Shown: piece after piece, positions 1 through 63,898 of the stretch
Layout of the letters: every line of letters begins with the position of its first letter
Numbering within the stretch: position 1 is the stretch's first letter
From: Roseiflexus sp.
GTDB lineage: Bacteria; Chloroflexota; Chloroflexia; Chloroflexales; Roseiflexaceae
Direction of reading: 5' to 3'
Assembly (NCBI GenBank): GCA_017743475.1
Contig: JAGHYV010000007.1
Location: 1 to 64,000, forward strand
DNA length: 64,000 nucleotides
The notes under the pieces: model-generated
Database searches by the model: none
What the model saw: the letters and a program-made list of their open reading frames with translations, nothing else
Told to the model about the DNA's origin: nothing
Program-made: the position numbers and the translations under genes

Positions 1-92
1 ACTGCCATGCTATCTGCTAAGGCCGTGCGCATTATTTGAACCACAGGTACACCTCGTCTCTGATCATGCTCTGGCAAGGCCTTTCGCTCTAT

Positions 93-1604
93 TCAACGAC
101 ACCCCTTTACGACAACAACCTTTCCTGGTTCCTCCCAGAGCAGCGTGGGCACATCACCAGTAAATGCTCCGACGGGAAACTCGCGCACATTTATGTCGTT
201 TCTTCGATACATGACCCGAATCGCTGCCTCTGCCCTATTCTCCCACCATACTTCTCTTGGGAAGCCAACCAAAGCGACGGTTGCGTCCGGAGGAAGTTTT
301 GGACAAACTAGCATCAGTTTATCCAGTGTCAGCCTCGCGTCTGCTCCTCCCCAAAACACTGCACTTGACTGGATGATTTTTGGAGTGGAAAGATATGAAG
401 ATCCAATCATAGATAGACTGATAATCACGGCGATAATAACTCGACTAGCCCCGTATTTCTCAGCAATAATAAACCAGAATGAACCAAGTAAAGAGCAGAG
501 CACGACGGTAAGACCAACTGACGGCAGCATGAAAAGATAAGCGGCAAAATTTCCTATGAACAAAACCGGAAGGAAGGACGATACGTACCACGCGATGCCG
601 AATACAAACATACGAATATGTGATTTCCGAACACTAATCACCCTCTCGTCGGCTTTTAGCCAGAAAACGATGAACCAAATTAGAGCGAGGAGAAACCAGG
701 ATATCAGTAGAATGATTTTGAAGCAATCTTCGCATATCTCATCGGTAAATCTTTTTATTGGGTCTAAAAAAACCTCGAAGTACCAATAAGTACCCCAATA
801 GTACTTATTTAGTACGAAATAATCTAAAATGACACTGTAACCACTACTGGTCTCGGTTGAAACGTTCAGGATCGAATTAATACGGAAAACCAGGTAAACT
901 AGGGATATAGACCAAAAATACCAAGTTCTACGAATGAAAGGCAGCACAAATCCTTTTAATCCCGTAGAACGATCGTACAGAGCATCATATATAAATAAGA
1001 TTATAGGCACGATAATAGCCATTTCTTTGCACATCAAAGACATGATGTAAACGATCGATAACGAAACTGATCTAGTGGCATTTTTCGAGTCGGGAATTGA
1101 AACGTAGAGTACAACACATAACAGAACAAAGAATGTCATCGAAATTTCTTGGAAGCCGGAGACCCACATTAGGCTTTCCACGTGCACGCGGGAGAGAAGA
1201 TAGGATAAGGAGGTGACGAAAGATAGAAATCTATCAGAGGTTAGGTTTTTCAGAATAACATACACTAGAAAACAGTTTATTGAGTGAACAAAGATATTGA
1301 AAGAGAGAAAACGAGATGCTTCTAGTCCGAAAATGTATTTTCCTAGCCAAAAATATAAATTTGTAGATATAGGTCTATAAAAACCGAGCTCTCCTGTGTT
1401 CCAAAAAGCAAAACTGGCGGCAATATCAATTATGCTACTATCGCCGGAGGAAGAGAGAAAGACAAAGTCATCTTGCCAAAAAGAGTTGCTGGACAACGGA
1501 ACGAAGAAAGACAACGCTAATACCGAAAAAAGCACGAGTAGAAGCATATCTGCCCTACTCAACCCGAAAGATATGTCTTGATCAATGGTTCGCAATGGAT
1601 CCAT
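93..1604 (-). CDS. Polytopic membrane protein, GT-C/TMTC-like glycosyltransferase
   Basis: The 503-residue product has a hydrophobic helix from about residue 20 and many further membrane segments. The first extracytoplasmic loop carries an acidic pair, WQDDF (D45-D46), followed by GFYRPIS. GT-C glycosyltransferases that use polyprenyl-phosphate sugars have a comparable acidic loop, so transfer of a sugar at the outer membrane face is the likely role; the substrate is unknown. The last roughly 70 residues are soluble. AAGG lies upstream of the ATG. The gene is much more AT-rich than its neighbours, which suggests recent acquisition. It is the most downstream member of the minus-strand glycan region. 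A non-enzymatic membrane protein cannot be excluded. Confidence 0.7.
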   Translation of the reverse strand: MDPLRTIDQDISFGLSRADMLLLVLFSVLALSFFVPLSSNSFWQDDFVFLSSSGDSSIIDIAASFAFWNTGELGFYRPISTNLYFWLGKYIFGLEASRFLSFNIFVHSINCFLVYVILKNLTSDRFLSFVTSLSYLLSRVHVESLMWVSGFQEISMTFFVLLCVVLYVSIPDSKNATRSVSLSIVYIMSLMCKEMAIIVPIILFIYDALYDRSTGLKGFVLPFIRRTWYFWSISLVYLVFRINSILNVSTETSSGYSVILDYFVLNKYYWGTYWYFEVFLDPIKRFTDEICEDCFKIILLISWFLLALIWFIVFWLKADERVISVRKSHIRMFVFGIAWYVSSFLPVLFIGNFAAYLFMLPSVGLTVVLCSLLGSFWFIIAEKYGASRVIIAVIISLSMIGSSYLSTPKIIQSSAVFWGGADARLTLDKLMLVCPKLPPDATVALVGFPREVWWENRAEAAIRVMYRRNDINVREFPVGAFTGDVPTLLWEEPGKVVVVKGCR

Positions 1605-1873
1605 AGTGTGCGCCTTAATCCATCAAACGGAGAAGTAACTTACCGCAATCAAACCAGTGGCCGACTAGTTTCGCTCGTTAACCCCGAATTCTCACAATGT
1701 TATACTTTTTGAACCGTTCTGAATTTAGTAAGGATGGTGGAAACATGCTAAGGAATTGCATAACCGACTCCGATTACGAGGAGTTCTCTAGAAGCCAAAA
1801 TAAACCTTGACAATGTCGAATGTTCGAACTTACAGAGCGACAACGTTCTATCAGACTACGATCTACTCCCTCA

Positions 1874-3499
1874 TCACTTCGTTCCCTTGAGTACTAACCG
1901 TTCTATCGTCTGGCCAGCGCAACGAAACGAAGGTTGCTGGGCAAACGAATCGAACGCTGCAGGGGAGAGTCCTGTAAGTGCCACCAGCCACTCCTGCTGC
2001 GATGAAGGGTAAGCATCGAGATCTTCAATAAAAACTCTGCCACCTAGCTGGTGTCGTTCGAGGATGAGCGTCTCGATCACACGGAGCAGCGCATTAGTGT
2101 CTTCTGTACGCGCTGAGAGATCGATCAGACTAATCGTATCGCGCCCGTAGAAATAGCGGACATATGGTGCCCAGGACCAGTCTGTCTCCAGAAAGAGATC
2201 GGCAGGGTGCATCTTGTCAGACACGCATGCCGCCTTCTGAATATTAGGGTTCGGTATGACTGCTCTAGGCCAGACTGTTGTCTGAAAGTTGCCAAATCCG
2301 ATAAGTATGACACATATGCCAAGTGCTGCATACGTTGACTTTCCCTGGCGCGCGCCAGATCCCCAGATCACGGCAACAACTGAGACAAGGAAGAGGTTTG
2401 GTATGACAAACCACTTAGGCTCGAATGGATCCCACCAAACGATGAACGGGAGAAATACCAGATAACTTAGAAGCAGCCACAGAGCGCTCCTGTGCCTTGT
2501 CGTTGAGTCCTTATCCCAGTGCAAGACCCGCCAGAGAGAGAGCAAGATCAAACCCAGCAGACCCAGCAAACTCAGCAGCGCAGGCAATTTCTCCAACCGA
2601 AATGAACCTCGCAGGAGATCGCGCAGCCCTAACCCGCTCCAGATCGGGACAATGCTGGCTATCGCACTCAAACCGGCTGGCGACAGCCTGTCAAAAGACC
2701 ATCTACCCCAGATCGGTAAGCGCGCCCCACCATAACTCGTCAACCATTGAAATATATCAGAGAGGTTGCCATATCTGTGAACCAGGATTGCAACAGCAAG
2801 ATAGGTGAGACTAAGCGAGAGTATGCAGGTGATGATGAAGCAACAGGCTGCCACGAGGCGTATACGGAATGGTCGACCAACGTTCAGTATCAACTGCCCA
2901 AGCGCGAATCCCGGTAGAAGGAACACGCTGGCCTGCCAGGTCAACACAGCAAGGGTACATAGCAGCCCGGCAGCTATTACGCCAAAAAGATGTGTCGAAT
3001 ACACCATCACCGCCAACGCCCCGGCTGCAAAAGCTAACGACAGCGTGATGTACTGGACATCTGTACTGAAGACCCACTGTGACCAGGATACAGCTAGAAG
3101 AACTGACGCAAGCAGCGTAACGACAGCGTTACCCGATAGACGACGGAAAGCAAGGGCAGAAAAACCGACTGCCGCTGAACTGGCCAGAGCGGTAATGATC
3201 TTCAAAATCGGCACTGAGGCGCCCGTGTAGCCAAATGACTGAATTGCAACGAATGCTGCCCGCCCTATAACGCCATACAACATATGATTGGGACGATAGA
3301 TGTCGGGTCCGCCGCGCTCAACTGCAACAGCTTCAGCCAGACCGTTGAGATCGTACTGGATCGAACCAAATGGAACGTAGAGTAGAATACCGATGCCGAA
3401 GCCAACTATGAACCAAAGCCAGGCTTGGAGGGATGGTACCTGCACCGCATGTGGCCAGGCAGCATAGAACTGCCGCAATTGGCGAAATATGATGCTCAT
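1874..3499 (-). CDS. Polytopic membrane protein, GT-C-like (hypothetical)
   Basis: This 541-residue protein has a helix at about residues 28-46 and roughly ten more membrane segments, then a soluble C-terminal domain of about 120 residues. The loop after the first helix contains YDLNGLAEAV and RPNHMLYG, a layout seen in uncharacterised GT-C-like membrane proteins. AAGG precedes the ATG. The gene begins 6 bases after the stop of the upstream GT2 gene, so the two are probably co-transcribed; a polyprenyl-phosphate sugar made by that GT2 would be a plausible donor. The specific reaction is not recognisable from sequence. Confidence 0.65.
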   Translation of the reverse strand: MSIIFRQLRQFYAAWPHAVQVPSLQAWLWFIVGFGIGILLYVPFGSIQYDLNGLAEAVAVERGGPDIYRPNHMLYGVIGRAAFVAIQSFGYTGASVPILKIITALASSAAVGFSALAFRRLSGNAVVTLLASVLLAVSWSQWVFSTDVQYITLSLAFAAGALAVMVYSTHLFGVIAAGLLCTLAVLTWQASVFLLPGFALGQLILNVGRPFRIRLVAACCFIITCILSLSLTYLAVAILVHRYGNLSDIFQWLTSYGGARLPIWGRWSFDRLSPAGLSAIASIVPIWSGLGLRDLLRGSFRLEKLPALLSLLGLLGLILLSLWRVLHWDKDSTTRHRSALWLLLSYLVFLPFIVWWDPFEPKWFVIPNLFLVSVVAVIWGSGARQGKSTYAALGICVILIGFGNFQTTVWPRAVIPNPNIQKAACVSDKMHPADLFLETDWSWAPYVRYFYGRDTISLIDLSARTEDTNALLRVIETLILERHQLGGRVFIEDLDAYPSSQQEWLVALTGLSPAAFDSFAQQPSFRCAGQTIERLVLKGTK

Positions 3500-3505
3500 G
3501 TCAGG

Positions 3506-4297
3506 CTACCTTACTCGTGCCTTGGTTTCTATAGAACGAGATGTAGGGGCAACGCGGTAAACGCCAAGCCAATCGTTGCACCGTACTTGAAGCACATCTC
3601 GCAGGTTGCGCCATGAATCGCGCACTGGGTCCACCTTGGTTTCGGTACCGTATCGCCATGTCACCGGTACTTCGGCAATACGATAGCCACATTGGCGGGC
3701 GAGAAAGAGCAGTTCGACGTCGTAGGCGGTGACGGCAGCGCCCTGAACCACCGGGGCATCGTCACCATAAATGCGCACACGCCGAAACAGATCGTGTGCT
3801 GCCCTGCGGGAGAGCGCCTTGAAACCGCACTGCGTGTCATTGATGCCGGGAATGGCGATCAGACGAACCAGGAGGTTGAAGACCCGACCCATAATGTGCC
3901 GGTGCAACGGCTCGCCGATACGGCGCGCGCCAAGTCCCTCACGAGAGCCAATCACCACATCATAGCCCGCTGCAAAGAACGGAAAGAGCTTCTCCCACTC
4001 TTCGATCGGCGTCGCCAGATCAGCATCGCACAGCAGAATATACGCGCCACGCGCATCGAGCGCCCCTGCGCGCACGGCAAACCCTTTGCCGCGATGATCG
4101 CGTTTGAGGACGCGCACACCAGGGTAGCGCTCGGCGAGAGCCGCAGTCTCATCTGTGCTCCCATCATCAACGACCAGGATTTCAGATTCAAATGATTGTT
4201 GCGCCAGATATTCGCCAACACGCTCGAGAGTCGCCGGCAGGCGCCGTGCTTCATTGTAGGCAGGGATGACGACAGACAGGAATACCGCAGCAGACAT
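3506..4297 (-). CDS. Family 2 glycosyltransferase, polyprenyl/dolichyl-phosphate sugar synthase type
   Basis: The 263-residue protein has the GT2 nucleotide-binding start VVIPAYNE (residues 9-16), VDDGST (43-48), and the metal-binding DAD at 91-93 within CDADLATP. NDTQCGFKAL further on is typical of Alg5/DPM-like enzymes that load hexose onto a polyprenyl phosphate. It lacks C-terminal membrane helices. A strong GGGGGAGGG site precedes the ATG. It likely feeds the adjacent GT-C-like proteins. Its 5' end lies in a segmental duplication whose second copy is near 7.12-7.80 kb. The sugar specificity is unknown. Confidence 0.85.
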   Translation of the reverse strand: MSAAVFLSVVIPAYNEARRLPATLERVGEYLAQQSFESEILVVDDGSTDETAALAERYPGVRVLKRDHRGKGFAVRAGALDARGAYILLCDADLATPIEEWEKLFPFFAAGYDVVIGSREGLGARRIGEPLHRHIMGRVFNLLVRLIAIPGINDTQCGFKALSRRAAHDLFRRVRIYGDDAPVVQGAAVTAYDVELLFLARQCGYRIAEVPVTWRYGTETKVDPVRDSWRNLRDVLQVRCNDWLGVYRVAPTSRSIETKARVR

Positions 4298-4732
4298 AAC
4301 CCTCCCCCTCTGGCGAATTGGCAGTCCGAACGGTCTGCGGGTCTATGCATGTGGACTGATGACAATGCGACTGTACATGGAAGTAATGAATCGCCGATGA
4401 AAGAGCTATATCGAAAGAAGAACGATTCTGACACGTCCTCTTTCCCTCGACGCCCCTGGAGTGCCAGCGGACAGCGACCACATAAAGAGCGAGGCGCAGG
4501 AACTTATAGTTCCTGCGGCCTAGCCAGAGACTATTACTGAGGTGTCGCCGCCTACGCGTCGCTTCCTGTCAGGCTACCGCTCATCCAGCGGATGTGGTTC
4601 ATGCCGATCTTCCACAGATGACCGAGTGTCTCGGGGTTGCTGGCTGCTTTGAGGATGATGATCGGACCAGGACGCAGCGACCATTCGCGCGCGGCCCGCT
4701 TCGCCCGGTACTCCAGATCCTTCGAGCTCAGG
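4224..4732. repeat. Segmental duplication, copy A
   Basis: This segment matches 7122-7799 in direct orientation with scattered mismatches. It holds the 5' end of the GT2 gene, its leader, and the 3' end of the radical SAM gene. Copy A lacks about 170 bases present in copy B (roughly 7345-7513). The join between GT2 leader and radical SAM 3' end in both copies implies that these two genes were once neighbours. The intervening 2.4 kb, which includes a GT39 gene, was placed between them by the duplication or insertion. Confidence 0.85.
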
Positions 4733-5133
4733 CTCGGTGGTGCTTTGCTCATCACTAGAACATACTGGATCGGTTCGCCAGCCCGGTATGATCCCAGATC
4801 ACCGTAGCCGCCGATCAGCCGCAACGCTAGCCAGATCAGCTGTTCGAGCGGCGCCAGGCTGACGCCCGCCAGGCAGAAAAAGATCGGCGATGCCAGGGTG
4901 GTGAGCAGGCCGGAGATCCAGTAGGGCGGGCTTTGGAGATACACGCGCTGCCCGCCATACGACTCGGCCTGCATGCCGACGCCAATGAAAAACGCCGCGT
5001 GGGTCAGCGCCATGAGCGCCAGCGCCATGCCGCGCAGCGCGTCGATAGCGGTGATGCGCGCTGTCGTGCGTTCGACAGGATTTTCGATCGTCGTGCTTAT
5101 CGTTGCTACTGGTAGTGAGGTCCTGATGGTCAT
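4552..5133 (-). pseudogene. Chimeric remnant: DUF1624/acyltransferase-like N-terminus fused to radical SAM C-terminus
   Basis: The open frame starts like a heparan-alpha-glucosaminide N-acetyltransferase-type (DUF1624) membrane protein, with AIDALRGMALALMALTHAAF and later FFCLAGVSLA. It then jumps to what looks like the same family's C-terminal part, LRLIGGYGD and MSKAPPSL, so its middle is missing. From SSKDLEY onward it equals the last about 60 residues of the radical SAM protein encoded near 7.62 kb. The frame stays open to the shared stop. The fusion point is the edge of duplication copy A. It is unlikely to be functional. The frame is open further upstream to 5220, but ATG at 5133 fits the family's usual start. 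Confidence 0.8.
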
Positions 5134-5289
5134 TAGACGATCCAGTGCTGATGGATGCCGTGTGGCAGCTCCCTGACGATCATTGTGCTGTAGCGCAATG
5201 ACGCAGCGATGAAGTGACACCCATGCAGATTATGACAATTCCGCAAGGTTCGATACGATAACAATTACTTTAGTCCTCGTCCAGGCATA

Positions 5290-5590
5290 CTAATGTCCAG
5301 CGCTCGCTTTACGCATCGCCAACGGCGCTATTTCGGCAGTGACAGGATTAATCGGCTTCATTCTGGGCGCTGTACCTTTCCAGTTGCGATACTTTAATAA
5401 CGTCCAGATTGCCAGCAATCCATCACGATTCTTTATCTTTTTACCTTCTTCACACGTGCGACCCATGTATGATATAGGCACTTCAAAGATGCGATATCCC
5501 AGTCGTAGCACTTTTGCTGCGATCTCAGGCTCGATGCGAAAATCGTTGCTCTGCAGGTCAAAGCTCCGCGCTTACGCAGCGATTGCGTAA
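5290..5590 (-). pseudogene. C-terminal remnant of a family 2 glycosyltransferase
   Basis: On the minus strand the frame reads SFDLQSNDFRIEPEI, then LRLGYRIFEVPISYMGRT, then EEGKKI and a short tail. This is the usual C-terminal part of DPM1-like GT2 enzymes. No nucleotide-binding or DxD region lies upstream, so about two thirds of the gene is absent. It sits between the chimeric remnant and the GT39 gene, inside the rearranged segment. It differs from the intact GT2 at 3.5-4.3 kb, so it derives from another gene. Confidence 0.75.
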
Positions 5591-5667
5591 TGAATCGTAA
5601 TCTGCCGATTGTATAGTCTCCAAATTCGATTGAAGCACATGGGTTGTCTAGAAAAATCTAACAAATT

Positions 5668-7068
5668 CTAATATTCACGAACATCTGGTGTTGGAAATAC
5701 TTTCCACCCATAATGCTGCATTTTTGATCTAAACCAAACAAAAAGCACACTAAGTGCATACACAGATGTTAAGACCAAAAACTGATCGATAGAAATACGG
5801 TATCTTTCCTTTCCGCTCAACAACAAAGCTGTTATCATGTTAGCAATTACGGGGAGCATTGGCAATAGCACGATCCAAACACGCCGACGTACAGCAATAA
5901 CGCATCCCAAGATAGCAAGTGCGAATATCAGCCGAAACGACCAGACGCGCAGCTTTTCCGGTATTCGCTCATAGGTTGGATGATCATCTAACGAAGTATA
6001 ATCAAAGCCATCTTCAGGCCGCTGGCGTTCACCTTTATATCCCAGCGGTGGTGGCAATTCTTCACGTGGTATGAGTGGGTAGCTCACTAATAGCTGCGAT
6101 ACTGCATATCGCATAGCCACTAGCGGATGTGCCCTTATGAAATCACTTGCTAATGCAACTGCATATCTATCGCGTTCGAGTTCAGTCATCTGATCGAAAT
6201 CCGGTATGGCGCACTCAAGTTCATGATTGCAGTCTTTGCCCTCCATCCAGTCTGGATTCGCCTCACGCATGTAGCGCAACCAGTATGCCTCCCAAATTGC
6301 CCAACGTTTATTCGCGGTAAACAGCAACTCGCCGTGGACATCAAGGTTGCGCAGCGCCCATGGCATTATTGTCAGCAAGCATATCGCGGCTGTCAACATT
6401 AGTCCAGACATTAGCGAACGTACTGATCGCTGCCGATAGCGGATAGTCCATGCAACAATGAACGCTGTGCTTAGCGCCGCAAAGACAAGTACTTCTGGTC
6501 TGAGCAGAAAAGCAATACTGAGCACTCCACCCCAGGCCATATAGTGAACAGGTCGCCATAACTGCTGAACATACTTAATTAGCAGCAAAGTTGCCAGTGA
6601 TAACAAGAGAGCAAATAGTATCTCGGTAGTTAATGGTCTCACGTACATAACAAGTGCGGGATAAAATGCAGTTACGATTCCAGCAATAATCCCTGCCTTT
6701 TCCCCCATTGTTCTCTTTCCGATGTGGTAGACACACACACAGATTGCGGCACTCATCAAAATCTGTACCAAGCGAACCAAGAGATAGTTTTCGCCAAACA
6801 AAGCAAACACACTTGCAAGCATAAACGGGTAGACTGGCGGCTGAATAGATGTCGGGCGATTTGAAGACGCTACAAAGATATCATAGCTCACTGAGAAGCC
6901 ACGCCCCTCCAACAGGTTTCGGGCGATGTCAATATAGATGTTCTGGTCAAAATTCGAGTCGTACAGGCGTTGTTCAGAGCCAAGCAAGAGAATAAAAGTG
7001 AGCCGCACAGCGATCGCAACCAGGAAAACCAGAGCACTTGCAAGTAATTTGTGTGCAGCAGTACGCAT
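5668..7068 (-). CDS. GT39/ArnT-like membrane glycosyltransferase
   Basis: The 466-residue protein has about ten membrane segments. The first loop has the family pattern DSNFDQNIYIDIARNLLEG, followed by RPTSIQPPVYP. Such GT-C enzymes move a sugar from a polyprenyl-phosphate carrier to an acceptor outside the membrane. ATG at 7068 was chosen because GGGAGG lies eight bases upstream. The frame remains open for 88 further codons, but these cross duplicated leader DNA and give a low-complexity, Cys/Ser-rich peptide unlike a real N-terminus. Base composition is more AT-rich than flanking genes. Duplicated segments flank it on both sides. Confidence 0.8.
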   Translation of the reverse strand: MRTAAHKLLASALVFLVAIAVRLTFILLLGSEQRLYDSNFDQNIYIDIARNLLEGRGFSVSYDIFVASSNRPTSIQPPVYPFMLASVFALFGENYLLVRLVQILMSAAICVCVYHIGKRTMGEKAGIIAGIVTAFYPALVMYVRPLTTEILFALLLSLATLLLIKYVQQLWRPVHYMAWGGVLSIAFLLRPEVLVFAALSTAFIVAWTIRYRQRSVRSLMSGLMLTAAICLLTIMPWALRNLDVHGELLFTANKRWAIWEAYWLRYMREANPDWMEGKDCNHELECAIPDFDQMTELERDRYAVALASDFIRAHPLVAMRYAVSQLLVSYPLIPREELPPPLGYKGERQRPEDGFDYTSLDDHPTYERIPEKLRVWSFRLIFALAILGCVIAVRRRVWIVLLPMLPVIANMITALLLSGKERYRISIDQFLVLTSVYALSVLFVWFRSKMQHYGWKVFPTPDVREY

Positions 7069-7119
7069 TAGTTCCCTCCCAATACCAACATATGAGAACA
7101 GGCGACGATAGGTCATAAC

Positions 7120-7195
7120 CGTCGAGAGTCGTTGGCAGGCGCCGTGCTTCGTTGTAGGCGGGGATGACGACAGACAGGAGTACCGCAGCAGACAC
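7120..7195 (-). pseudogene. 5' stub of a duplicated GT2 gene
   Basis: The minus strand codes VSAAVLLSVVIPAYNEARRL, almost identical to the start of the GT2 at 3.5-4.3 kb, but the similarity ends after about 25 codons at the duplication edge. The start codon is GTG instead of ATG. The stub lies upstream of the GT39 start in a different frame and cannot make an enzyme. Confidence 0.8.
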
Positions 7196-7799
7196 AACTC
7201 TTCCCCTCTGGCACATTGACAGTCCGAACGGTCTGCGTGTCTATGCATTGGGACTGATGACGATGTGACTATAAATGGAGGCGATGACTCGCCGATGAAA
7301 GAGCCATATCGAAAGAAGAACAATCCTGACACGTCCTCTTTTGAGAATTAACAATCAGCGCCTTCACCAGATTAGGCGGGGATACAGATAGAGACTATGC
7401 AAGTGCAGTACAGCGTGCTATCGTACAGATGCCGCTGCTGCACAAGCGTTCTGAACGGCAGCGTCAATGCGCGAGAAACACGAAAGACATACCAGGGTCA
7501 GACCTCTGCCGTCCCTGGAGTGCCAACGAACAGCGACCAGATAAAGAGCGAGGCGCAAAGAACCATAGTTCCTGCGGCCTCGCCGGAGACCATTGAGGAC
7601 TAATTTGTTGATCGCCTATGCACCGCTTCCTGTCAGGCTGCCGCTCATCCAGCGGATGTGGTTCATGCCGATCTTCCACAGATGACCGAGTGTCTCGGGG
7701 TTGCTGGCTGCTTTGAGGAAAGTCATGATCGGACCAGGACGCAGCGACCATTCGCGCGCGGCCCGCTTCGCCCAGTACTCCAGATCCTTCGAGCTCAGG
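7122..7799. repeat. Segmental duplication, copy B
   Basis: This is a direct repeat of 4224-4732. It carries the GT2 5' stub, its leader, about 170 extra bases (roughly 7345-7513) and the true 3' end of the radical SAM gene. The DNA between the stub and the radical SAM stop (7196-7615) shows no gene. Several substitutions and a 3-base indel within the radical SAM part separate the copies, so the event is not very recent. Confidence 0.85.
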
Positions 7800-9346
7800 T
7801 GCGGGTAGTTTAGCACCGTGTGATTGTACATGTCATAGTCTTCCCAGCGATCCATCTTAATCCAGCCGTTCGCAACTGCTTCATAGTAGAAAGGTGTGCC
7901 AGGGTAGGGCGTGGCGATATGGAACAGTGCGATGTCTAGCGGCAACCGCTTCGACAATGCAATCGTCTGCTGGATGGTCTCGACCGTCTCACCGGGCAGA
8001 CCGATGATAAAGTACCCCCAGTTCTTGATACCGACCTTGCGACTGGCGTGGATCGTTTCTTCAATGCGCTTGACTGTCGTGCCCTTGCGTGCGCGTTTCA
8101 GCACTGCCTCGCTGCCGCTCTCCAACCCCCAGGCGATCATGAAGCAGCCAGCTTTCTTCATCAGCGCCAGTTCTTCTTCGTCGACAAAATCGACGCGGCT
8201 GTTGCATGACCATTGTAGTTTGATGCCGTCCTTGATGATCGCATTGCACAGGTCGTAGACGAACTCCTTCTTGACGGTGAACAGGTCTGCCTCGAAATGG
8301 ATGTGGTGCATGCCCATCTCTTTGAGCATGTACATCTCTTCAAGCACATGCTGCGGGCTGCGATGACGCACGCTTGCCTGGTAGGTGACGTGCTTGATGC
8401 AGTAGCGGCACCCGGCAGGGCACCCGCGGCTTGTCAACACAAACGTGTACGGTCCGCCGACGATTGGCACTTTATACTTCTTCCAGGGCAGCATGTGGTG
8501 CAGTGGCAATGGCAGGCTATCCAGGTTCTCGATGAACGGACGGTCAGGATTAATCTGAACTTCGCCGTGCTCGTTGCGGAAGGCAATGCCGCGCGTCTCG
8601 CGCAGGGCGCGGGCAATGACCTGTGGGTAGACCCCCAGAAAACGTCCACGTGTCGTCAGGTACGACGCATCCGGGAAGGGAAGTTTGCGCCACGGCGCTG
8701 TCAGGTCGGGGTTGCCGACCGGCACAGTGTCGGTTGCTTTCTCCAGTTCCACCTGACGGTCGATGGTCTGAATGACATCGAGGATGGTCATTTCCGGTTC
8801 GCCGCGCACCACGATATCGAGCGTCGGGTAGGACTCGAGCGTCTCACGGCTCATCGGCGTGACGTGGGTGCCGATCGCCATTGTGATCGTACCAACTGCC
8901 TTACCAAGGAAGGTGGTGCGCATATCGTTTGTCAGTGTCGGCGCTGTGGCGTGGATGATCATGTAGCGCGGCTTGTGCCGGTACATGTAGCGCTCGAACT
9001 CCTCCCACGTCATGCCTAGACCGATTGCATCGACCACATCGACGGTGTAGCCTGCTTCTTTGACCACAGCGCCGATCTGCGCCAGCGCTGTCTGGGGCCA
9101 AATGATGCCGTCGCGGGTGCGGCGCCCCACGCGCGCGATGTCGCGCAGGAACAGATCGCCATCGGGTGATGGCGGGTTGAGCACCAGAACGTCGAGGCGC
9201 GGTTGTTTCTCGCGCGGCATCTCGACGAACTTGATTTCGCCAGCCCGCTCATCGGCGCGGGCGGGAGCGACCAGTTTGATGCCCTGCTTTTTGTCGCCAG
9301 GGGCAAGATGCTTCCCATTCGTTGCGTTCGTTTCGTGATCCGTCAT
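7616..9346 (-). CDS. B12-binding-domain radical SAM protein
   Basis: The 576-residue product has an N-terminal cobalamin-binding-like Rossmann domain (LDVLVLNPPSPDG at about 50-65, then about 140 residues). A radical SAM core follows, with CPAGCRYC (C309, C313, C316) as the iron-sulfur cluster motif, preceded by SRG. Such enzymes catalyse methylations or rearrangements on unactivated carbons, often in lipid or glycan modification. ATG at 9346 is favoured by GGAGGAAGAAG upstream; the open frame continues 36 codons with unlikely sequence. Its last 60 codons are duplicated near 4.55 kb. The exact substrate cannot be told. Confidence 0.85.
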   Translation of the reverse strand: MTDHETNATNGKHLAPGDKKQGIKLVAPARADERAGEIKFVEMPREKQPRLDVLVLNPPSPDGDLFLRDIARVGRRTRDGIIWPQTALAQIGAVVKEAGYTVDVVDAIGLGMTWEEFERYMYRHKPRYMIIHATAPTLTNDMRTTFLGKAVGTITMAIGTHVTPMSRETLESYPTLDIVVRGEPEMTILDVIQTIDRQVELEKATDTVPVGNPDLTAPWRKLPFPDASYLTTRGRFLGVYPQVIARALRETRGIAFRNEHGEVQINPDRPFIENLDSLPLPLHHMLPWKKYKVPIVGGPYTFVLTSRGCPAGCRYCIKHVTYQASVRHRSPQHVLEEMYMLKEMGMHHIHFEADLFTVKKEFVYDLCNAIIKDGIKLQWSCNSRVDFVDEEELALMKKAGCFMIAWGLESGSEAVLKRARKGTTVKRIEETIHASRKVGIKNWGYFIIGLPGETVETIQQTIALSKRLPLDIALFHIATPYPGTPFYYEAVANGWIKMDRWEDYDMYNHTVLNYPHLSSKDLEYWAKRAAREWSLRPGPIMTFLKAASNPETLGHLWKIGMNHIRWMSGSLTGSGA

Positions 9347-9768
9347 GTGTCTTCTTCCTCCCACGTGGGTCAACGCGCCTCGGGCATCGGGGGTCGCGGG
9401 GTCTGCTGCCGCGAGGTTCCCCTGCTCACGCTGCGCGCTGGACTGATAGCACATCGTTACGGTACCATTCCAGGGTGAATGGCGGCTGAACCAGGCATTG
9501 AAGCCAGGTTACAGAGGTGACATATTCGAGGCAAGAGGCGAGGGGCGAGCGGCGCGAGGGGATGAGGCACGAGGGGTTGAAGGTTGAACGTTGCACGTTG
9601 AACGTGGGACAACGACGTGTAGGGGCGCACCCGCAGCTGCGCCCGTACTAGCGGCGAGAATCATGGCGGGGGCGCCGCGTTGCTGCGCCCGGACTGGCAG
9701 CGGGGCGGATAGGGCGCGGGGTGCGGGGCATGGGGCATGTTGAATATTGCACGTTGAATGCAGGAAGG
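9347..9768. other. Gene-free spacer with heptad and purine-rich repeats
   Basis: No convincing gene is visible. The stretch holds GAGG-rich purine tracts (9530-9575), a TTGAACG-type heptad run (9576-9606), a GC-rich segment near 9610-9720 in which GGGGCGC/GCGCCC words recur, and a second short heptad run (about 9737-9760). It separates the radical SAM gene from the upstream membrane protein, so the two may not share a transcript. Confidence 0.6.
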
Positions 9769-12255
9769 TTACAGGTAACCCTTAACCCCTGCCTCCTTCC
9801 CTCTGCCTTCCGCCGCCACTATCTGAACCGCCTTGCGCTCGTAGAGACCGGCAGCAACGAACGCTGCTATCGCGTAGAACAGTGCTGCGCACGCCATTGC
9901 CACCGTAAATGTGCTCGCCATGCTGATGATAATCACCACGGTAGAGCCAATCACCGAAAACACGCCGTTCATTCCCCATGCCCACGGCACCAGTTCCGCT
10001 CCGTGGGCGCCGAGTTGCCGCAGCCCGGTGGGAAACGGCATCCCCATGATCACCGCCAGCGGCGCGATGATCAGAACGCTCAATGCCACGCGCACACTGT
10101 CCGGCAGGTGCAGGAACGATTGAAAGAGTGACGGCAGCGCTACAATGTAGACGACGATTGCAATCGCTACACCGATCAACACTGTGCGCAACCGTGTGGC
10201 GCTATCGATCAGGCGACGGCTGAGCAGGCTTCCAGCCGCAGAGAAGATCAGCATACTGAAAATCGTCGTGGTGATGGCGGTGGTAGGATAGCCGATAAAC
10301 AGGGTAAAACGCTGGATCAGCACAATCTGTACAAAAATGTAGCCGATTCCCAGCGCACTGAAATACACCAGCATCAGGCGCGCCAGCGGCAGTTGCAGAC
10401 CCCGCCGTTTGTGTCGCCAGAGCGGTGCAATGATGAAGGCAGCCGCGCTTGCCAGCGAAAAGACAGCCATGGTGATCAGGATAAGATTGCCGATTGGAAA
10501 ACGGTTGATCTTGCCGCTGAATGCCTGATTGAAGGCGACATGATCCCATCTGAAGTAGTTGTAGAAGAACGGATTATCGTCCGTCACCGGAAAGATGTTG
10601 AACTGATAGGCGGACTCGAAGGCGCGCGGATCGGGAGCATACAGATACTCCGCATAGGTGGTGTCGAGACGTTCCAGTGGATCGTGCAACATGATGAACG
10701 CATTGGTGCGCGCCCACGCCCGCAGTTGCTCAATCGCCTGCGGCGAAAACGGAGATGGCGAAACCAGCAGCGTCGCCTGGGTGTTGGTGTCGTTCGCAAC
10801 AATTGCAATGTGCGCCGCAGGATTGGCGATGCCGCGCTGTCGCAACGCCTCGGCAGCCAGACCGGTGATCCGCAGCATTTCACGCGGCGGCTGATCGACG
10901 TTGCGCGTCCACGAAAACACGCCCTTCGGGTTGAGCCGCGCTAAAACCAGCGCAAATGAGTCAACCGTGTAGAGATACGACTCTGATAGCACATACGCGC
11001 CACCCGAAAGAGCGACCAGATTATCGAGACCGATCCCCTGAATGAGATCATAGGTTCTAGTATCGCGGGTCAGGAAACTCCGTCCTTCCGCAACGACGAT
11101 GCGTGTCGAGGGGTGCCCTGTAAGATTGCCGCTGAACTCGCGGTAGGGTCCTTCCAGCAACTTCACGACATCGGCGTTCAGTTCGATAGCGGTGATCTGC
11201 CTGGCGCCGTACAATCGCGCCAGCAGAATATCAAGCCCGCCCCCAACACCGATCTTCAGAGTGGTGTCGTGTTTCAGCCCTAGATGGTATGGCGCGCTGA
11301 TGATGGCGTGGTCGAGAAAGCGAAAGCGTTGCAGGTCCTGGTCGGTTCCATCAAAACGGTACATGCCGGTCATCGAGGTCCCATCAAGCGTGACCAGTTT
11401 CAGGTCGTACAATGGCGCCTGCTGAAATGCGTCGCTCGCCAGATAGACCCGGCTGATGCCGCCAACGATCATCGGTTCTTTGACCTGAATAGTCGGCAGC
11501 ACATCCACGCGCCCAACCGGATTCCAGCGGGTGTACTCCGGTCGAACGTCGAAGTGTTGCTGCGCCCATCCAAGTTCCTTCGATCCCGGAACCGGCAGGT
11601 GCAGCGGCGAACCGAGGATCAACCACAGGATCAGCCCGCCCTGACCGACGCCGAGCGCCACTGCGCCGATGCGCCAGGGGCGCGTGAGACCAACGCCGAA
11701 CAGAAGACTGCCTGCCAGCACCAGTAACGCCGTCGCCACAATCGTCGCCGGTCCTCCGAGCGCCTGAATGACCCATACCACTGCCAGCGTCGCTGCGCCT
11801 GCGCCGAGCATGTCGGCGAAGTAGAGGCGGTGCGCTTCTTTGTGCCAGATGGTGAAGACGCCGGAAACGATGACTCCACCGAGAAAAAAGGTCGTGAACA
11901 GCCCGATAAAGTAGATTGCCAGCCCGATGAGGGTTTGAACAATCTGACTGCTACGCAGCGGATCGATAGCGATGCCGCCGATGATTGCCAGGTTGAGCAG
12001 GACCATCAGGCTGTACCCGATGACAAGCCTGCCCAATCGACGTTCGAGTGTTGCAGCACTCCATCCACGCACTGCCAGAAATGTGCCGGATGCGCCGCCA
12101 CCCAGGAGCGCCACACCAATGATCAGGTAGGTGAAATGGTGCCAGATCATGATCGAAAACATGCGGGTGAACGTGATCTGCAACGCCAGTATGCTTGCTG
12201 TCACCAGTGCCAGCCCGACATACCTGCGCCAGGAGTGAACGTGAACGCATGCCAT
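9769..12255 (-). CDS. Spermidine-synthase-like domain within a polytopic membrane protein
   Basis: The 828-residue protein has six or seven N-terminal helices (about 12-215), a soluble central domain (about 225-560), and a second helical block (about 585-815). The central domain has a methyltransferase/aminopropyltransferase Rossmann signature, KIGVGGGLDILLARLYG, with the ribose-binding acid in AIELN near 358. AGGGAGT precedes the ATG. Membrane spermidine-synthase-like fusions are widespread but poorly characterised; true polyamine synthesis is doubtful. Neighbours point to envelope glycan or lipid modification. Confidence 0.75.
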   Translation of the reverse strand: MACVHVHSWRRYVGLALVTASILALQITFTRMFSIMIWHHFTYLIIGVALLGGGASGTFLAVRGWSAATLERRLGRLVIGYSLMVLLNLAIIGGIAIDPLRSSQIVQTLIGLAIYFIGLFTTFFLGGVIVSGVFTIWHKEAHRLYFADMLGAGAATLAVVWVIQALGGPATIVATALLVLAGSLLFGVGLTRPWRIGAVALGVGQGGLILWLILGSPLHLPVPGSKELGWAQQHFDVRPEYTRWNPVGRVDVLPTIQVKEPMIVGGISRVYLASDAFQQAPLYDLKLVTLDGTSMTGMYRFDGTDQDLQRFRFLDHAIISAPYHLGLKHDTTLKIGVGGGLDILLARLYGARQITAIELNADVVKLLEGPYREFSGNLTGHPSTRIVVAEGRSFLTRDTRTYDLIQGIGLDNLVALSGGAYVLSESYLYTVDSFALVLARLNPKGVFSWTRNVDQPPREMLRITGLAAEALRQRGIANPAAHIAIVANDTNTQATLLVSPSPFSPQAIEQLRAWARTNAFIMLHDPLERLDTTYAEYLYAPDPRAFESAYQFNIFPVTDDNPFFYNYFRWDHVAFNQAFSGKINRFPIGNLILITMAVFSLASAAAFIIAPLWRHKRRGLQLPLARLMLVYFSALGIGYIFVQIVLIQRFTLFIGYPTTAITTTIFSMLIFSAAGSLLSRRLIDSATRLRTVLIGVAIAIVVYIVALPSLFQSFLHLPDSVRVALSVLIIAPLAVIMGMPFPTGLRQLGAHGAELVPWAWGMNGVFSVIGSTVVIIISMASTFTVAMACAALFYAIAAFVAAGLYERKAVQIVAAEGRGKEAGVKGYL

Positions 12256-16326: not shown

Positions 16327-17824
16327 CTATTTCACGACCCGATAGAGGCTGTAGACGCCATGCCTGGCGACCAGTTGGAGGTTGCGAGGGTTGATGTATC
16401 TGTCGTACATCTTTGTCCACGAGCCGAAACTGCCTACAAGGATATAATCCGGATCTGAAGAGATAGCATCGTGCATATTGTCAGGCAGTCGTTGACAAAG
16501 CATAAGATAACGAGTATACACGTTTACCACCTGAGTAGGCGGATAGATAATGCGCCGGTCAGACTCGATGCTAAACTCCCATTCCCACGATGCAACAATT
16601 GCACCCTCAGGAACAGTGCGTTGTAAAACTGTCACCATGTGCCGGTAGCCGTTGTCGGAAGGATGGAGGACGTTATAGACTTTGTCTGGCAGACCCTGAT
16701 ACACCACATACGCACCGCATAAAAGGACAACTATTGCTTTCCGGAGGATAGGAGGGATTGCAGCATACTTCCAGAGCGCAATGAGAGCGCCTGCGAGGGG
16801 GATCGTCGTCAGAACAAGAAAGTAAAAAGCGTACCGCGCCTACCCGATCGATAGTGCGGCAAACCACACCAGGTTGACACCTAGAAAAACCGGCAATACT
16901 GCGTGTACAAACCCGTGAGAGGTCGGCTGACGCGCCTGATAGACACCCCATACGATCGCGAGGACTCCCAATAGCCACCGTCCGGTTCGCCAGAGGACGC
17001 TCAAAGCATTACGCCGGCGTTCTGGATCAAGCGCTGCGATATGGAGCCAGAATCTGTCACGCAACACCGAAGCATTGTCATAGAACTGATCACTACCGAC
17101 AATAGCGATCTGAGCTGCATACCAGCCAGCAACACATGCCGTAGCGCAGACGCCAGGAACAATCACTGCTGGCCAGCTGGCCTTACGGTAGTACAGTCTG
17201 TCCAGCGCTAGGATAATCCCCAGCGCGACAGGCACAAAATGAGCACCTGCGATTTGGTTACCATAGCAATGCCCCAGGCAATCCCACTGAATATCCAGGC
17301 GACCGGAGCATGCGTTTTGCGTTCCAGCGAGCGGAACCAGATCAGAAGACCAGTCAGCAGATAAGCGAGCGCAGGAACTTCGCCCAATGCCTGGCGTGCC
17401 ATCGGCACAAAACTGGCATATATCATACGTGCCTGCCAGCAAAAAGAGGAACGCCAGACTGGCGCCGCCATCCCCGATGAGCCGTCGCGCTAAGAGAATA
17501 AATACAACACACGCTAGCACTGCAAATGGAAGGACAACCATGCGCGCTAGCCAGACGCCCGGACTGATTATGCGGTACGCAAGGGCAATCAGAACAATGA
17601 CCGTTGGACTGGTCTGGATCGCCGGGTCGAGAACTCGGGGCTTTTCTGGGTCTGACAATGCATACAAGCCGCTACGAGCCAGCGTAGCGGCTGTGCCTGC
17701 GTTTAGTCCTTCATCAAACCATGGGTGAGGATAAATGATTAGCGTACAGCAGATACATAACCGCAAGTACGCCAACAATCAGCGCAATGAGGCGATACGG
17801 CGAGCTTTGAAGATGGTGCGTCAT
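16327..17824 (-). pseudogene. Broken GT39-like membrane glycosyltransferase
   Basis: Pieces of one protein lie in three frames. An N-terminal helix begins at ATG 17824 (MTHHLQSSPYRLIALIVG). The active-site loop YPHPWFDEGLNAG is in a second frame. A segment around GEVPALAYLLTGLLIWF is in a third (about 17240-17430). The second frame then resumes. Near 16841 an in-frame TAG follows AALSIG, and coding continues straight on as ARYAFYF to a normal C-terminus. Two shifts lie near short A/T homopolymers, so assembly errors could explain some, but not the TAG. As written it cannot make a full enzyme. Confidence 0.8.
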
Positions 17825-50528: not shown

Positions 50529-51694
50529 ACCGGTTCGCCTCGCAGGTGGTAAAAGATACGCTCTTCGGTCAGCGCCACACGATTGATGTCGAACAATTCC
50601 TGGACGATGGCCCGTCCCCTGCGCCCCATCGCGCGCCGCGCAGCAGCAGGCAGGGTCAGGGTATGCAGCAGCGCATCCGCCAGCGCTCCCGGATCACGCG
50701 GCGGAATCAGGTAGCCGGTTTCACCGTCGCGCACCACGTCGGGCAACCCGCCGACAGCGCTGGCAACCACCGGTCGTTCCATCAGTAACGGCTCCACCGC
50801 GCCGCCGACATTCTCCGAGAGCGATGGCACTGCCGCCACATCGCTCGCCGCAAGGATCGCCGGAATATCGGTGCGTTTTCCGGTAAAGATGACGTGGCGA
50901 TCAACACCATGATCGTGCGCCAGTTGCTTCAAATATGCCTCATATGCGCCTCGTGCAGCGCTTTCCGGTTCTGCGCCGACGATCAGGAAGCGTGTCTCTG
51001 GCAGACGTGCCACCACGTCGCGCGCCGCCCGGATCAGCACCTCGTGCCCCTTGATACCGTAGTGCAGGTTGAAGCGCCGAATGGGAGGAATCAGATGCGC
51101 GACCAGCGTCACAACCGGCGCTGTGGAAGGGATGCCGAACTCGTGACGGATGCCTCCCCCGTCCAGCGATGGATCAAACCGTTCGAGCGGAAAACCGTAG
51201 TAGCTCAACATCACCTGAGTGCGTCCAAGGGGCGCCCGCCGATAGTAGCGCACCAGCGCGCGGCTTGACGCCAGGATCGCGCTGTCCATCCAGGCGGTAC
51301 CATACTCTGCGATACGGTAGTGTGGCAATTCCAGGTCCCACAGGCTCGGCGGTTTGAACAGGCGCACCGGCACGCCCGCCAGTCGCGCCGCCAGCCGCGC
51401 CCACAGGCTGATCGGCATCGCATAGTACACCACCACATCCGGGCGCTGCCGCCGAAACAGGCGGTAGAGTGCGTTGACGGCGCGTGCTATGGAACGGGTT
51501 TCTGTCAGGCGGAGTGGCGCCTTCCAGTCGTGCACGTCCATGCCAGCCTCTCGTGCCAGGCGTTCCATAGGCGAATCGGTCGGGCATGCCAGTGCCACCC
51601 GGTGCCCACGTTGCGCCAGGAAGCGCGGCGTATGCAACGCCCATTCGTGCGCTCCATAGCCGGTGACGTAGAGAATGGTCAGCGGCGTGCCCAT
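50507..51694 (-). CDS. Family 4 glycosyltransferase, tandem paralogue 1
   Basis: The 395-residue GT-B protein ends with a donor domain containing GKRTDIPAILAASDVAAVPS, SENVGGAVEPLLMERPVV (an EX6E spacing in place of EX7E) and GGLPDVVRDGETGYLIPP. The N-terminal half differs strongly from the next gene, while the last 110 codons are nearly the same even in DNA (50580-50880 versus 51760-52070). AAAGG precedes the ATG. It overlaps the downstream GT2 and the upstream paralogue (16 bases). Confidence 0.9.
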   Translation of the reverse strand: MGTPLTILYVTGYGAHEWALHTPRFLAQRGHRVALACPTDSPMERLAREAGMDVHDWKAPLRLTETRSIARAVNALYRLFRRQRPDVVVYYAMPISLWARLAARLAGVPVRLFKPPSLWDLELPHYRIAEYGTAWMDSAILASSRALVRYYRRAPLGRTQVMLSYYGFPLERFDPSLDGGGIRHEFGIPSTAPVVTLVAHLIPPIRRFNLHYGIKGHEVLIRAARDVVARLPETRFLIVGAEPESAARGAYEAYLKQLAHDHGVDRHVIFTGKRTDIPAILAASDVAAVPSLSENVGGAVEPLLMERPVVASAVGGLPDVVRDGETGYLIPPRDPGALADALLHTLTLPAAARRAMGRRGRAIVQELFDINRVALTEERIFYHLRGEPVCATSAL

Positions 51695-52899
51695 CGCAAA
51701 CCTTTCATTGCAGGCGCACTCAACAGTTCCTCGTACAAGTGCATGGTTTGCCCGACGGTTTTGTTCAGGTCGAACAATTCCTGGACGATTGCCCGTCCCC
51801 TGCGCCCCATTGCGCGACGTGCAGCTGGAGTCAGCGACAGGATGTGCAGCAGCGCATCCGCCAGCGCCTGTGGGTCGCGTGGCGGAACCAGGTAGCCGGT
51901 TTCACCGTTGCGCACCACGTCGGGCAACCCGCCGACGGCGCTAGCAACCACGGGTCGCTCCATCAGCAACGGTTCGACCGCGCCGCCGACATTCTCTGAG
52001 AGCGATGGCACTGCCGCCACATCGCTTGCCGCCAGGATCGCCGGAATATCGGTGCGTTTCCCGGCAAACAGCACCGTCTGCTGAAGCCCCAGGTCGGCGA
52101 CTATCCGATACAACTTCTGTTTGTAGCGTTCCGCCTCACCCGGCACCAGCGCATCACCGACAATCAGGAAGCGCACATCGGGCAGTGACGCGCGCACGTG
52201 CGCCGCCGCCTCAATCAGGATTTCGTGCCCTTTCAGCCCGATCCCGTCGAAGACATTCAGCCCGCGCAACGAACGCTCCTTCATGGGAGAGTACATATAG
52301 GCGATCATCGTCACCAGCGGTGCATCTGGTGCAATGCCGAACTCGCGACGGATCGGACTCCCGTCAAGCATCGGATCGAACGGATCGAACGGAAAGCCGT
52401 AGTAGATCAGGTGGATCCGCCCGTGCATCACACCGCATGTTTCATAGATACGCTGGGTTGCGGTGCTGGAAGCGATAATCGCACTGTCGAGGGGTGCCAG
52501 CGCCATTTCGATCCGCCGCGACACAGGAATTTCGAGCGGCAACGGACCGGGCCACTGGGTCAGGCGCACCGGAACACCCGCCACACGTGCTGCCAGACGC
52601 CCCCACACATTGGTCGGCGCCAGATGGTTGTGCACCACGTCAATCCGTTCGCAGCGCAACCAGGACGCCACACGCGCGATATACGCCGCAGCGCTACGCG
52701 TATGCCGGATGCGGCGCGGAAACGGTTCGATCCGCGTCGGTATGCCAGCTGCACGCGTCCGTTCCGGCAGCGGACCTTCTTCCGGGCAGATGAGGAAGAC
52801 ATCGTGCCCGGCGTCGCGCAGCAGGCAGAGCGGATGGAACGCCCATCCACCGGCAAAGGCGCTTCCAACGATATGGACGATACGTAATGACCGGGACAT
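51679..52899 (-). CDS. Family 4 glycosyltransferase, tandem paralogue 2
   Basis: The 406-residue protein begins LRIVHIVGSAFAGGWAFHP and has VVHNHLAPTNVWGRLAAR in the acceptor half. The donor half shares GKRTDIPAILAASDVAAVPS and SENVGGAVEPLLMERPVV with paralogue 1. The different acceptor halves suggest different acceptors but the same donor nucleotide sugar. It begins right at the end of the polymerase gene (one base gap). No strong Shine-Dalgarno site was seen, so translational coupling is likely. Confidence 0.9.
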   Translation of the reverse strand: MSRSLRIVHIVGSAFAGGWAFHPLCLLRDAGHDVFLICPEEGPLPERTRAAGIPTRIEPFPRRIRHTRSAAAYIARVASWLRCERIDVVHNHLAPTNVWGRLAARVAGVPVRLTQWPGPLPLEIPVSRRIEMALAPLDSAIIASSTATQRIYETCGVMHGRIHLIYYGFPFDPFDPMLDGSPIRREFGIAPDAPLVTMIAYMYSPMKERSLRGLNVFDGIGLKGHEILIEAAAHVRASLPDVRFLIVGDALVPGEAERYKQKLYRIVADLGLQQTVLFAGKRTDIPAILAASDVAAVPSLSENVGGAVEPLLMERPVVASAVGGLPDVVRNGETGYLVPPRDPQALADALLHILSLTPAARRAMGRRGRAIVQELFDLNKTVGQTMHLYEELLSAPAMKGLRWARR

Positions 52900-57523: not shown

Positions 57524-57632
57524 GGGGAAGCGACGTGCGGGGAGAGGACCCCGACACGATTTCAACGTTCAACGTTCAACGTTCAACCTTCAACGGGGGA
57601 AGCAACGTGTGGGGCGAGGATCCTGACACGAT
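57524..57632. repeat. 37-base direct repeats around a TTCAACG heptad run
   Basis: GGGGAAGCGACGTGCGGGGA... (57524-57560) and GGGGAAGCAACGTGTGGGGC... (57596-57632) are near-identical and 72 bases apart. Between them TTCAACG repeats four to five times (57561-57595). The block lies between the lone receiver gene and the Wzc gene, and could affect transcription of the locus. Confidence 0.75.
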
Positions 57633-63479: not shown

Positions 63480-63898
63480 AATAAGTAATCTGGTATAGCC
63501 TGCGCAGGCGGGCTTCGCCTTGCACAGGCGAGGGCTTATGGACTTTGAGTAATTATTCCCTCTAGCCCGCGCAGGTGGGTTTCGCCCCGCATAGCTGAGG
63601 GCTTATCGTAGGCGATAGGCGATGGTCGATAGGGTTGCCATTGGAGTTCGCGTTCCGCGCAGGCGGGCTTTGCCCTGGAAAGCCGAGGGCTTTAGCCCGA
63701 CGGCACAATGCGCATACCGGAATAAATTCTCAATTTCCATTAGCCCGATGGCTGGCAGTGATAGCGGATTTATTTCTCAATCTCCATTAGCCCGACAGTC
63801 AGCGCTCTTCTCGGCTATCAGCTATCAGCTATTGCTTATCGGCTATTCATTCAGCCCGACGGCACGAGGCATATACCGGATTAAATTCTCAATCTCCA
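63480..63898. repeat. Repeat-rich block with palindromic and tandem units
   Basis: The stretch has no recognisable gene. It begins with GCGCAGGCGGGCTTCGCC-type stems (several copies, 63497-63690; related to the elements near 24.2 and 39.2 kb). These alternate with GAGGGCTTA. Then three copies of a unit ending TTCTCAATCTCCATTAGCC (about 63730-63900) occur. The units are imperfect. Confidence 0.7.

Follow-up and report, generated by a model that had tools for sequence, protein, structure and literature searches.

Gene clusters for exposed structures form replacement flexible genomic islands, and their exchange by homologous recombination has been proposed in aquatic prokaryotes (Lopez-Perez et al. 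2014, PMC4033161). Stacked effector-immunity modules have been described in the T6SS of Vibrio cholerae, for which homology at one end and an illegitimate event at the other were proposed (Kirchberger et al. 2017, PMC5361080). Homology-facilitated illegitimate recombination is known in transformable bacteria and, rarely, in E. coli (PMC3240628). We analyzed a window of 64,000 nucleotides at the start of contig C66 of a Roseiflexus genome (G000). The window contains a real recombination scar in a glycosyltransferase slot, which is an event of a known kind. The locus resembles the replacement flexible genomic islands in that variable clusters, typically for exposed cell structures, occupy the same place in related genomes and that the divergence is uneven at the boundaries. 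In those islands one cluster replaces another, whereas the present locus retains both in tandem, separated by truncated edge genes, and each cluster comprises only a few genes. As in the Vibrio cholerae modules, a new module appears to have been added and the old one shifted rather than fully replaced, and remnants remain; the genes and their function are different, and the arrangement is that of one genome, whereas the Vibrio cholerae arrays recur in many strains. The combination of one homologous and one illegitimate end would be shared with homology-facilitated illegitimate recombination, which was demonstrated experimentally, whereas here it is deduced from an old joint.

The radical SAM gene is designated R and the DUF1624 (HGSNAT) gene is designated D, and their truncated copies are designated R' and D'. 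Read along the minus strand, the order is R, spacer, GT2 start (cut at 7122), GT39, GT2_B tail, promoter-like element, D', R', spacer, GT2_A, ORF541, ORF503, and the end of C66. The features are as follows.

93–1604, minus strand: ORF503, membrane-type protein of cargo 2, low G+C (36–48%)
1874–3499, minus strand: ORF541, open reading frame for a membrane-type protein of cargo 2
3506–4297, minus strand: GT2_A, intact family 2 glycosyltransferase of cargo 2 (PF00535)
4224–4732, no strand: left copy of the direct repeat (GT2_A 5' end, spacer, radical SAM 3' end)
4552–4732, minus strand: R', radical SAM 3' fragment, last ~60 codons
4552–5133, minus strand: open chimeric D'-R' reading frame
4725–4732, no strand: D'/R' joint, 8-bp microhomology AGCTCAGG, the overlap of the two matches
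4725–5133, minus strand: D', DUF1624/HGSNAT_cat remnant (5' piece, PF07786), codons 1–96 and 249–286 of the intact gene
5208–5241, minus strand: promoter-like element GAATTGTCA-N19-TTCATC, which lies upstream of D in five relatives
5299–5574, minus strand: GT2_B C-terminal fragment, residues 194–285 of the intact SKYB12 (G003) GT2 adjoining radical SAM, 83–84% identity
5668–7068, minus strand: GT39/PMT_2 gene of cargo 1, apparently intact (PF13231)
7122–7799, no strand: right copy of the direct repeat, GT2_A start cut after ~75 bases at 7122
7342–7509, no strand: block of ~168 bases found only in the right copy
7616–9454, minus strand: R, intact B12-binding radical SAM protein, right edge of the slot (PF04055)
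14712–15878 of contig C161: intact D (DUF1624/HGSNAT gene) of this genome

The best NCBIfam match of R was HpnJ, far below the HpnJ cutoff. ORF503 and ORF541 gave no Pfam match, and no relative of ORF541 was found at E ≤ 1e-30 in 10 other family genomes. The relatives of GT2_A (~70%), including one on C168 of the same genome, sit at other loci. The GT2_B fragment corresponds to the C-terminal third of its GT2. The G+C content of the cargo genes except GT2_A was lower than that of the core.

A search without prior coordinates recovered the repeat block pairs 4224–4443 and 7122–7341 (89% identical), 4451–4535 and 7510–7594 (85%), 4549–4655 and 7613–7719 (96%), and 4658–4737 and 7725–7804 (96%), so that the identity per block was 85–96%. 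The coordinates given in the initial annotation for two direct repeats, each consisting of a GT2 5' end and a radical SAM 3' end, were thus accurate, and its placement of the GT39 gene, the GT2 C-terminal piece, and the DUF1624 piece between them was confirmed. The left copy comprises the GT2 5' end (4224–4297), the spacer, and the radical SAM 3' end (4552–4732); the right copy contains the same parts, but its radical SAM gene is whole and its GT2 is cut. The left copy is 169 bases shorter, as against the ~170 bases estimated earlier, and the difference is essentially the block found only in the right copy plus small indels. At a minimum length of 45 nt the window contains four direct-repeat families, and three of them represent this pair. 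In a whole-genome search, the left spacer retrieved the right copy at E = 3e-45, and chance similarity is therefore excluded. The spacer is not a dispersed repeat, with only 2 copies in the genome and none in the 25 other family genomes.

Other repeats were observed elsewhere in the window. Two neighboring paralogous ORFs (proteins 52% identical) have a common 300-bp block (50583–50882 and 51764–52063) at 89% DNA identity, which is suggestive of a gene-conversion tract. The heptamer TTCAACG occurs 5 times in tandem in a non-coding stretch (57561–57595), and a 47-bp unit is present in 2.2 tandem copies with 75% matches at 63692–63796.

D' and R' are joined at AGCTCAGG, 8 bp found in both parent genes, and this joint shows microhomology only, as in homology-facilitated illegitimate recombination. 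D' consists of two pieces (5133–4840 and 4839–4725) whose junction at 4839/4840 marks the in-frame loss of 152 codons, and R' aligns with the intact radical SAM gene over 181 bases with 6 substitutions and a single 3-bp gap. The frame stays open across the deletion, the joint, and the 3-bp indel from 5133 to 4552. Polarized by eye against G002, the changes of D' itself were ~4 silent and 2 non-silent, and those of R' were the non-silent W to R and G to D, the indel, and a few silent ones. These counts are too few to claim selection, and the silent changes would be explicable by divergence as an allele before joining. The open frame lies behind the only D promoter-like element found in this genome; that the chimera may be a working new gene is nevertheless a long shot.

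The relatives used for comparison are other species, among which G003 (SKYB12) and G004 share the genus Roseiflexus with the window. The core order in Roseiflexus and two neighboring genera is R then D, and the R-D gap holds glycosyltransferase genes in some species only. R is directly followed by full-length D in four relatives (G002, G004, G009, and G010); the gap is ~376 bp in G002, and the gene order in G002 and G004 is U678, U828, R, D, GT4. The R and D flanks lie on one contig in G002, G003, G004, G009, and G010 and on two synteny-linked contigs in G000. The gap of G003 contains an intact GT2_B, a truncated GT4, and an inverted 817-aa gene (L038, 7434–11950), the product of which matches DUF7402 and a beta-propeller. 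In G005, a GT39 gene 81% identical to that of the window lies directly before D at a contig end, where the slot is visible from the D side only. Among 82 genomes of the order, the GT39 gene of the window was otherwise found only in G005 and in one more distant genome (48% identity). The glycosyltransferase content of the slot, compared between species, differs among G003, G005, and G000, and there is none in G002. The possibility that G003 also carries a duplicated core gene was considered and rejected; its GT4 is truncated at both ends (residues 38–305) and no intact GT4 was found elsewhere in the assembly, so duplication is not demonstrated.

The same slot with conserved flanks is thus present in related genomes, as in replacement flexible genomic islands. 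The adjacency of R and D in the relatives, together with the absence of the spacer from the 25 other family genomes, indicates that the ancestral order was R then D, and the best explanation of the interval is a variable cargo slot in Roseiflexus. The initial annotation had taken radical SAM then GT2 as the original order. This does not hold, because four relatives carry DUF1624/HGSNAT directly after radical SAM and the order radical SAM-GT2_A was seen in no relative. An intact radical SAM-GT2 adjacency elsewhere, named at the outset as confirmation, exists in one species only, G003, with a different GT2, the one of which the window retains the GT2_B tail. The present arrangement with full-length genes at each position, named at the outset as counter-evidence, was found in no relative examined.

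On the side of D that faces away from the slot, C161 shows synteny with G002 and G004 (for G002, over the part that was compared), and C66 does so from R outwards. C161 most likely adjoins the start of C66 in view of this synteny, an adjacency that no sequence spans, and the extra genes would then sit between the native copies of R and D. The bracketed interval most likely spans at least 8.9 kb, made up of ~7.6 kb from C66 and 1.25 kb from C161 plus any unseen gap, and most likely reads R – cargo 1 (GT39, GT2 tail) – D'/R' – cargo 2 (GT2, two membrane proteins) – D. In a translated comparison with the loci at hand, no gene remnants were recognizable in the 1.25 kb that C161 carries beyond D. 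The D side of the slot is co-linear with relatives, which are other species and not the parents. Elsewhere on C66, two adjacent minus-strand ORFs at 16327–17778 (126 and 312 aa) correspond to one 508-codon open frame in G002 (DNA 90% identical), and this gene is probably frameshifted in G000.

The element GAATTGTCA-N19-TTCATC lies upstream of D with constant spacing in G002, G003, G004, G005, and G009. Whole-genome scans found it once per genome and twice in G002; in G000 it occurs only at D', and the intact D on C161 lacks it. Its position and conservation suggest that it is a promoter. The N-terminus of D' is like those of G003, G005, and G009, and that of intact D is like those of G002 and G004, as judged by eye over 20–35 residues. 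The occurrence of the element at D' only and the differing N-termini therefore indicate two alleles of D. D' and intact D are 98.6% (first piece) and 95.7% identical in the two shared pieces. D' appears to retain the native 5' end of the gene as a leftover, with the working copy having another 5' end. The initial proposal of capture or unequal recombination in a glycan locus stands in part: duplication with mosaic pieces by unequal or illegitimate recombination is supported, but capture of foreign DNA does not account for the DUF1624 piece.

Comparison of the two spacer copies gave 34 differences in 248 aligned bases (13.7%), whereas R' and D' combined showed 14 in 511 (2.7%) relative to the intact genes (Fisher P = 3e-8). 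Under a single date of in-situ duplication with R' and D' unconstrained, ~35 changes are expected in a test that assumes an even clock (P = 5e-5). The uneven divergence suggests that the copies accumulated their differences as functioning alleles in separate lineages and were joined only afterwards; gene conversion between R' and R, or between D' and D, could be an alternative source.

On balance, we lean toward the explanation that inter-strain recombination, with one homologous and one illegitimate end, stacked two alternative cargo alleles in tandem in a single slot, and that decay followed. For this we infer two parental strains, a direction of transfer, an order of events, and a mechanism. 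The recipient slot would have read R – spacer – GT2_A (whole or remnant) – GT39 – GT2_B – promoter – D, and the incoming fragment from a related (sister) strain would have read R3' – spacer – GT2_A – ORF541 – ORF503 – ... – D. The D-region end of the fragment would have entered by homologous recombination, and its R3' end would have been joined illegitimately to the recipient D at the 8 bp, giving R – cargo 1 – D'/R' – cargo 2 – D with both cargos kept. Later decay would account for the in-frame deletion in D', the loss of the GT2_B 5' part, the truncation of the first GT2_A, and the 168-base indel. Stacking is favored by what was directly observed, namely the anatomy of the locus, the R-D core that is full length in four relatives with a gap filled differently in G003 and G005, the two kinds of D 5' end that define two alleles by element and N-terminus, and the microhomology at the D'/R' joint. 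It is also favored because the uneven divergence fits copies that diverged while still functioning as alleles, before joining, and because the cargo (except GT2_A) is lower in G+C than the core, with GT39 and ORF541 rare or absent in relatives. The identity of 98.6% between the first piece of D' and intact D counts against it, which is too close for long-separated alleles unless recombination homogenized the D body.

The main rival is an in-situ tandem duplication, in which an ancestral R – spacer – GT2_A – GT39 – GT2_B – D had its R3'-to-D segment doubled via the 8-bp microhomology and the copies then lost or exchanged different genes. It requires no donor, the D'/R' joint is as expected from microhomology-mediated tandem duplication, and D' and R' are closest to the genes of their own genome rather than to those of a relative. 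We regard it as rather unlikely, as a single date does not match the divergence of the spacer versus that of R' and D', the D copies differ in their 5' ends with the promoter-like element in one only, and ORF541 and ORF503 need an extra acquisition. Imperfect flanking direct repeats around a block missing from most relatives would also be produced by Campbell-type integration of a circle carrying GT39 – GT2_B tail – D'/R3' – spacer – GT2_A start through a single crossover in R3' – spacer – GT2_A. Such a circle would already need both odd joints, and the ORFs of the block include no replication, relaxase, or recombinase gene; this route appears improbable. The assembly consists of 206 contigs, one of which ends inside the slot, and two strain-like alleles are present, as would be expected of an assembly chimera of two co-occurring strains. 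The 8 bp shared at D'/R' are too short for an ordinary k-mer joint, however, and there are no N gaps at 4200–7900, and we consider such a chimera quite improbable. An integrative mobile element was considered and rejected, as no integrase or transposase Pfam match was found in the main ORFs of 1–12255 (the sequence beyond position 1 is an assembly gap), there is no tRNA in the window, and no convincing inverted repeats occur at the joints.

These results identify the interval between the radical SAM and DUF1624 genes as a small glycosyltransferase cargo slot in Roseiflexus. The locus retains an intermediate stage, with old and new cargo present together and scraps of the edge genes between them. 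If the D'-R' chimera works, a new small membrane protein would have been born from a cassette-stacking scar. The event also shows how a core gene can be parted from its own promoter region.
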